Assembly (NCBI GenBank): GCA_913056195.1
Contig: CAJXMF010000003.1
Span: forward strand, 1-64,000
Length of the DNA stretch: 64,000 bases
Reading direction: 5' to 3'
From: an uncultured Methylococcaceae bacterium
GTDB lineage: Bacteria; Pseudomonadota; Gammaproteobacteria; Methylococcales; Methylomonadaceae
Position numbers and translations under genes: made by a program
Notes under the pieces: generated by a model
Databases searched by the model: none
What the model saw: only the letters and a program-made list of their open reading frames with translations
What the model was told of the DNA's origin: nothing
Shown here: positions 12,359 to 13,771 of the stretch, piece after piece
How the letters are laid out: each line of letters starts with the position of its first letter
Position numbering within the stretch: position 1 is the stretch's first letter

Positions 12359-13771
12359 TTACCAGTTTATAATGGGCAGATTACTATGTGGCACAAACAG
12401 TACCGGTATGGGTTGGGTTCTGTCAGATGGATACAAGATACTGGTACAGTTGGTGCCATCATGTTTATAAATTCCAATGGCGTTGATGCCTGCTGGGATA
12501 TTTGTCGGGTTTGGAAATGTAAAGGTAAACGTATGGGAACTGCCATTTTCTAAACTGGTTAATTGATTGGAACTTGTAACCGAAGTTATGCTGTTACCAT
12601 TGCCATAAAAAACTTTCAAACAAATAGACTGAGTATTATATGAATTTGATTGTGGTGGAAAATCGAGCGTACGAAGCGAATTTCCGTACCAAATTTGGTT
12701 GCTGTTTAAGCAAGTCGGCTGATCTGTTATCGTTCCATTATCAGTACATCCACGCCATTTGGGGGTGGGAGAACCAGTTAACGCCAAACAACTGGTTTTA
12801 TCGGTAGCTCTCTGTCTGTTGCAGCCATACCCTTCCCCGTACCAAATAGCCGAAGCACTCTCACAGGTATTTTTGTCTGTACTTGTGCCATCAGAACAAA
12901 CCTTCCAGGTTCCAGATGCAGCAACACAGCTATCCTTGTTAATATAGCCTGCTTTACTGCATCCTCCATACCAAGTGTCAGGCGACACGCAAGCGACTTC
13001 TGTTGTTTTTGTTGGGTCTGTACATAATGATGTAGGCGGTGTCTGTATCTGAGTGGCCGTATAAGGCTTAATAAACCTGATACTAACCCCACCACTAATA
13101 TCAACCAACCAATCATTACTAGGAATAATCGGCTGGGTCGCAGGATAATCGGCATCATAGTCTGGTGGCGTACCGCCTGATGTTTGGTCTTTACCATAAC
13201 TAAACAATGTTAAATCACCAGTCCCTGGCTTATTTTTCTGAAAAACCCAACCATAATTAAAGTCATTTGCAGCCGTTGTCCAAGTATTGCTCCCCGTACA
13301 CGAAGCTTGAACGGTTATCGTTGGGTCACTGCAATAACCTTGTGCTTCCCTGCCCCACCCATCGGTATAGGCATCTTTATTGGCTGGATTGTCAGAAACT
13401 GACAGATATGGCCCTCTCCAGCCTGTAAACAACCATGCTTCACCATTGATACATGTAGCTTGCGTTGTATGAGCCGAGTTTGAACACTTTCCTTGATATG
13501 CTGGTTGTGTACCCTGTGTTAACAATTCTTGTATATTATTCGGCAACTGCCCCATATCCGCGACAAAGCCGGATATATCCGGCTGGCCGTTAATGGTTCT
13601 TTTTGGATTGCCGATGATGGCTTGTTTAATGCTGTTTAATCGGTCTTTGGTTTGTTCATAGCGGGTGGAGTAGCCGATATCGACCGTTGAGCGGAGGGCG
13701 ATGGTGCTCAGTACGGTGATAATCAGCAGAACAGTGACCAGTTCGACCAGAGAGAAGCCTTGTTGTTTCAC
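12359..13771 (-). CDS. Large GspG-like prepilin with inserted Cys/Trp repeats (GTG start)
   Basis: QQGFSLVELVTVLLIITVLSTIALR prepilin motif; GWRGPYL...DGWGRE; at least seven C-x(8-10)-C-x(5-9)-W units. Confidence 0.8.
   Translation of the reverse strand: MKQQGFSLVELVTVLLIITVLSTIALRSTVDIGYSTRYEQTKDRLNSIKQAIIGNPKRTINGQPDISGFVADMGQLPNNIQELLTQGTQPAYQGKCSNSAHTTQATCINGEAWLFTGWRGPYLSVSDNPANKDAYTDGWGREAQGYCSDPTITVQASCTGSNTWTTAANDFNYGWVFQKNKPGTGDLTLFSYGKDQTSGGTPPDYDADYPATQPIIPSNDWLVDISGGVSIRFIKPYTATQIQTPPTSLCTDPTKTTEVACVSPDTWYGGCSKAGYINKDSCVAASGTWKVCSDGTSTDKNTCESASAIWYGEGYGCNRQRATDKTSCLALTGSPTPKWRGCTDNGTITDQPTCLNSNQIWYGNSLRTLDFPPQSNSYNTQSICLKVFYGNGNSITSVTSSNQLTSLENGSSHTFTFTFPNPTNIPAGINAIGIYKHDGTNCTSILYPSDRTQPIPVLFVPHSNLPIINW

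Follow-up and report, generated by a model that had tools for sequence, protein, structure and literature searches.

A predicted modular pseudopilin carrying seven short C-C-W units at a putative additional type-4-filament locus of a Methylomonadaceae bacterium

Pilins onto which extra modules have been grafted are known to act as adhesins (PMC8179133, PMC10191384). In the PilB/PilC-type modular pilins of S. sanguinis, a pilin N-terminus is combined with a module that is not specific to pili and is thought to be displayed on the filament (PMC8179133). The pilin described here is built along similar lines. It also resembles the GspG and GspH pseudopilins of type II secretion systems (T2SS) in its N-terminal helix and in the GW-GPY and DGWG elements, and the gene cluster next to it shares with the MSHA pilus (MshE/MshG/MshL) a PilZ/MshEN ATPase, a GspF protein and a secretin that resembles MshL. 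Surveys of modular pilins depend on domain databases, and the C-C-W architecture is therefore invisible to them.

The modular pseudopilin gene occupies positions 12359..13771 on the minus strand of the window, the whole analysed stretch of 64,000 nucleotides. It encodes a protein of 470 amino acids with a GTG start, a class III signal (MKQQG^FSLVE) and a retained Glu5. In profile searches the protein scores above the cut-offs of Pfam PF07963 (24.2 bits against 21.2) and NCBIfam TIGR02532 (23.7 bits). By its signal, Glu5 and hydrophobic helix, the predicted product is a class III prepilin, or type IV pilin-like protein. The first-pass annotation had called it a pseudopilin with a prepilin helix and GspG-like elements; the prepilin part holds, and a plain T2SS identity does not, the protein falling far below the equivalog cut-offs of TIGR01710 (21.1 vs 88.85 bits) and TIGR01708 (20.8 vs 80 bits). 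The hydrophobic N-terminal helix alpha1 of the pilin domain covers residues 5-55 (13604..13756, minus strand) in the family alignment and is a helix in the low-confidence full-length model. The closest named record belongs to the methane-oxidising endosymbiont of Gigantopelta aegis (L039), with 63% identity in the best segment.

The family alignment describes a single pilin domain interrupted by three insertions, over which the units are placed as 1 + 1 + 5. All seven units are present letter for letter in the minus-strand translation of 12689-13486 and follow the pattern C-x(10-11)-C-x(5-6; once 10)-W; 2000 residue shuffles gave a mean of 0.39 such units and a maximum of 3. Unit 1, CSNSAHTTQATCINGEAW (13433..13486), lies at the first insertion site before GWRGPYL, and unit 2, CSDPTITVQASCTGSNTW (13280..13333), at the second site after DGWGRE. 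The third site, between a host segment of about 85 residues (164-248) and the C-terminal domain, holds the remaining five in tandem: unit 3, CTDPTKTTEVACVSPDTW (12971..13024), unit 4, CSKAGYINKDSCVAASGTW (12905..12961), unit 5, CSDGTSTDKNTCESASAIW (12842..12898), which is followed by the conserved linker YGEGYG, unit 6, CNRQRATDKTSCLALTGSPTPKW (12755..12823), and unit 7, CTDNGTITDQPTCLNSNQIW (12689..12748), all on the minus strand. Unit 6 is exceptional in its C-x10-W spacing (C-x5/6-W in the others) and unit 7 in its C-x11-C spacing (C-x10-C in the others). The C-terminal host domain, a strand domain of about 95 residues (376-469; 12362..12643, minus strand), aligns in unit-bearing and unit-free relatives alike. 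It contains two cysteines, 383 and 441, which together with the 14 in the units make up the 16 of the protein. The first-pass annotation had recognized the seven units, their Cys/Cys/Trp order, the position of one between the helix region and GWRGPYL and of six after it, and their insertion into the globular domain; its literal "Cys-x-Cys-x-Trp" spacing has to be replaced by that given above, and it overlooked the C-terminal host domain. The repeat lies outside Pfam at curated cut-offs: scans of P0001, L012, L013 and L026 gave no model above its gathering score on the units, and literature searches on cysteine-repeat pilins and methanotroph pseudopilins turned up nothing on a C-C-W repeat.

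The gene adjoins a type-4-filament cluster in several genera, where much of the gene set is syntenic. In the window, the plus-strand part of the cluster starts with a probable PilN/GspL-like inner-membrane protein (69..1490; transmembrane segment and coiled coil, weak PilN match at E 0.011, syntenic in relatives) and a probable PilO/GspM-like protein (1487..2080), which is assigned by a transmembrane segment, a coiled coil and synteny and has no family match. They are followed by an assembly ATPase (2208..4016; PF00437, PF07238, PF05157), in which an N-terminal PilZ domain is fused to MshEN-T2SSE; its c-di-GMP motifs RQDDR (RxxxR) and DSSSHG (DxSxxG) are intact, and a canonical MshEN motif is not recognizable on reading the sequence. 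Next are a GspF/PilC platform protein (3982..5268; PF00482), a 190-aa protein with a signal-peptide-like start (5268..5840) that probably takes the GspC/PilP position, as judged from gene order and synteny and with no family match, a secretin with an extra C-terminal domain (5840..8227; PF00263 and PF11920) and a Pom-family outer-membrane beta-barrel (8228..9334; PF17251, E 3e-69), which adjoins the secretin in several relatives. The extra secretin domain (DUF3438/TIGR03749) is of a type described elsewhere in integrating conjugative elements. The periplasmic part of the secretin contains a low-complexity stretch rich in Gly, Asn, Arg and Ser with NNRGGNNRNG repeats. In the Gigantopelta endosymbiont (13381-16822) the secretin gene matches as two blocks about 1.1 kb apart, at query residue 517, and is seemingly split by an insert. 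The pilus operon closes with 9338-10702 (plus strand). Its product of 454 aa has Cys motifs like those of zinc ribbons and a single transmembrane segment; it is conserved in the same endosymbiont and belongs to no family.

The minus strand contributes a second pseudopilin with a GspG-like N-terminus (10835..11662; TIGR01710 at E 9.6e-7, below cut-off), a partner gene conserved next door in relatives, and, between the two pilin genes, a DUF2939 protein (11718..12320; PF11159) that is also found in the Gigantopelta endosymbiont. Since both pilins keep Glu5, neither is established as a tip cap. Fairly near the cluster, 18449-20206 (minus strand) encodes a response regulator-GGDEF-EAL protein, a possible c-di-GMP link. 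The cluster proteins are clearly homologous to known components, but none reaches the curated cut-offs for GspE, PilB, GspF, GspD or PilQ, and the secretin scores 106.7 bits against the MshL cut-off (TIGR02519) of 250.2. The genome has other prepilins, which resemble those of separate T4aP and T2SS loci; the cluster with its PilZ-fused ATPase, GspF, secretin and two pilins is therefore predicted to be an extra type-4-filament machine.

The pilin family was studied in 61 complete members after removal of duplicates. Unit-bearing members have 2 to 14 units each, and the range over the whole family is 0-14. Three orthologues (L172, L173 and L174) come from a different family of Methylococcales, the order to which the window's genome is assigned by its relatives. 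They share the gene neighbourhood and are practically free of units; what the regular expression picks up in L173 and L174, one or two matches, cannot be recognized as units. The window's own family also includes a unit-free paralogous clade (23 rows), whose single matches are mostly not recognizable as units. The unit-free relatives can be aligned along the host domain and leave gaps where the units sit, which shows that the units are insertions into a pilin that also exists without them. In a tree built with the unit residues removed, the unit-bearing proteins group together, separate from the paralogous clade (support 99/99), and the unit-free orthologues are basal. One protein nested inside the unit-bearing group, L190, has a single unit and probably represents a secondary loss, or near-loss. 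The simplest history suggested by this tree is a single origin of the units on the branch leading to the orthologues within that family, followed by gains and losses.

The five-unit array aligns unit by unit in 11 orthologues with fixed linkers YGG / xx / YGEGYG / RS. All 10 Cys and 5 Trp are conserved in at least 10 of the 11, likewise the motifs W-x-GG and WYGEG[YF]G, and the pairwise identity of the array (0.53) is as high as that of the C-terminal host domain (0.49). On these grounds, the array is to be regarded as a selected structure and not as drifting low-complexity sequence. Unit numbers reach 8-14, and Cys numbers 26-36, in three other pilin homologues (L229 from G081, L195 and L230), where a shorter unit type (C-x6-7-C-x6-W) is also seen.

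The unit is not restricted to pilins, and the description of it as a repeat family inside a pilin is too narrow. In the window's genome the pilin is the only protein that carries it. Among the sampled genomes of the window's class, 10 of 369 match the unit, and arrays were found only in the two members of the window's own family. The sampled unit-containing frames in other families of the class have one unit each, several of them behind signal-peptide-like starts; two such proteins (L238, L241) share the N-terminal motif F.AG..A.A.VN.NF. The unit is present in more than 100 IMG/VR contigs. The viral and pilin units may be homologous or convergent, the units being very short and the viral set having been picked with the pattern CEAAGGTW. 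The viral carriers resemble tail fibre, baseplate, tape-measure and head-tail adaptor proteins. Their units are single in many proteins, sometimes four in tandem; viral frames of more than 1000 aa (L045/L116, L106/L118) have four adjacent units, in tandem as in the pilin array.

One unit is also found in each of the gp8 proteins of T4 and KVP40. In the T4 baseplate wedge protein (PDB 1N7Z, residues 142-162) the segment CSIASLTDKDECLKLGGKWTP contains the full C-x10-C-x6-W; in contrast to the pilin array, it is a single unit within an unrelated structural protein. The unit profile matches T4 gp8 from end to end with E 0.49, which is not significant alone. The Pfam Phage-Gp8 model matches pilin residues 267-315 with E 0.54; this match was first taken for noise and is explained by the unit that gp8 itself carries. 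A PDB profile search also gave antibody heavy chains, which have only KxSCEASGGT in common with the unit and were rejected as chance, and a COG4 match was dismissed. As judged from these occurrences, the C-C-W unit is a portable module that pilins have in common with proteins of viral tails and baseplates and with a small number of exported proteins of bacteria. We speculate further that C-x(10)-C-x(6)-W could be an undescribed disulfide mini-module that moves between phage tail or baseplate proteins and bacterial pili and has been multiplied on the pilin of Methylomonadaceae-type methanotrophs into a tunable adhesive array on a distinct, unnamed type-4-filament subtype; as a whole, we consider this scenario rather improbable.

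The structure prediction suggested in the first-pass annotation gave a divided result. The full-length AlphaFold2 model, from two alignment rows, is unusable (pLDDT 34.6), but the model of the array, at medium confidence (mean pLDDT 61.2), has some repeated secondary structure, every unit having a short helix close to its second Cys. Unit 4, the one backed by alignment rows, is modelled as strand-loop-helix-strand with pLDDT about 76-84. In the PDB, Foldseek found two matches to the array model. T4 gp8 1N7Z ranks first (prob 0.60, rmsd 1.5 A over 25 columns), a weak match not significant alone (E 1.3). It agrees with the sequence match, but the predictor was probably trained on that PDB entry.

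The number of cysteines is even in 27 of 27 complete relatives with at least three units (10-36 Cys) and in 60 of 61 members of the whole family. Such parity would have a chance of 2^-27 if the counts were independent; the relatives are related, units bring Cys as pairs, and even counts are also expected from the gain or loss of whole units, so that parity is support and not proof. With this reservation, the even counts support full disulfide pairing in the unit-bearing pilins, in line with the paired cysteines noticed at first reading. Viral units were located via their second half (CEAAGGTW) alone and nevertheless 116 of 120 have both Cys, which points to pairing within a unit. It is strongly suggested that the single units are self-contained mini-modules of some 20 residues, each held shut by an internal Cys-Cys disulfide and packed on its Trp.

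Our best reading, held with about even confidence, is that the protein is a modular pseudopilin of the additional type-4-filament machine and displays disulfide mini-modules for adhesion, that is, for contact with a surface or a partner. The tandem units would project from the filament and form a patch that resists proteases, contacts a ligand and so mediates attachment, and the PilZ domain of the ATPase could couple filament extension to c-di-GMP. The array has no conserved binding motif besides its aromatic-glycine linkers. The main rival, which we consider somewhat unlikely, takes the units as a stalk or brace. They would be disulfide staples without a ligand, which make loops stiffer or set the spacing of subunits within the filament or relative to the secretin. 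Such a fixed architecture agrees with the conservation of unit order and linkers in the five-unit core, and the viral relatives of the unit sit in structural proteins of tails and baseplates; however, unit-free orthologues run the same machine, and a copy number from 0 to 14 is easier to reconcile with a display surface than with a precise brace. The same variation in number, together with the near-alike units within some copies (L191/L236, CSDNISTT..), could indicate an antigen-like decoration whose fast change in unit number evades phages or predators for which the pilus is a receptor. We regard this as quite improbable, because the five-unit core keeps its identity of about 53% across genera, as high as that of the C-terminal host domain, so that most of the array does not drift. 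A metal or redox site, in which Cys, with Trp, bind for example copper or cycle between thiol and disulfide, would suit the numerous Cys and Trp on a surface protein of a methanotroph relative, but it is very improbable and less likely than the first-pass annotation had allowed: comparison of the units found no invariant His, Asp or Glu ligand beside the Cys, only Cys, Cys and Trp being invariant, the Cys parity fits stable disulfides, and the unit is found alone in viral tail proteins.

If display for adhesion is the function, the protein would represent a different route to a functional pilin, with tiny putative disulfide units in loops, a copy number of 0-14 and a conserved five-unit core. 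One small module would also link a pilus with viral tail proteins, which makes it a compact, testable scaffold. Compared with the T2SS pseudopilins, the pilin is set apart by its length of 470 aa and its units. In contrast to the MSHA pilus, the cluster has only two pilins, a secretin below the MshL equivalog cut-off and a Pom barrel. As in other modular pilins, a module that is not specific to pili has been added to a pilin that exists without it, as the unit-free relatives and the viral units indicate. Unlike the PilB/PilC-type proteins of S. sanguinis, in which a whole folded domain (vWA, lectin) is joined by a linker (PMC8179133), the window pilin carries putative disulfide units of about 20 residues, variable in number and without a Pfam model, in three loops.
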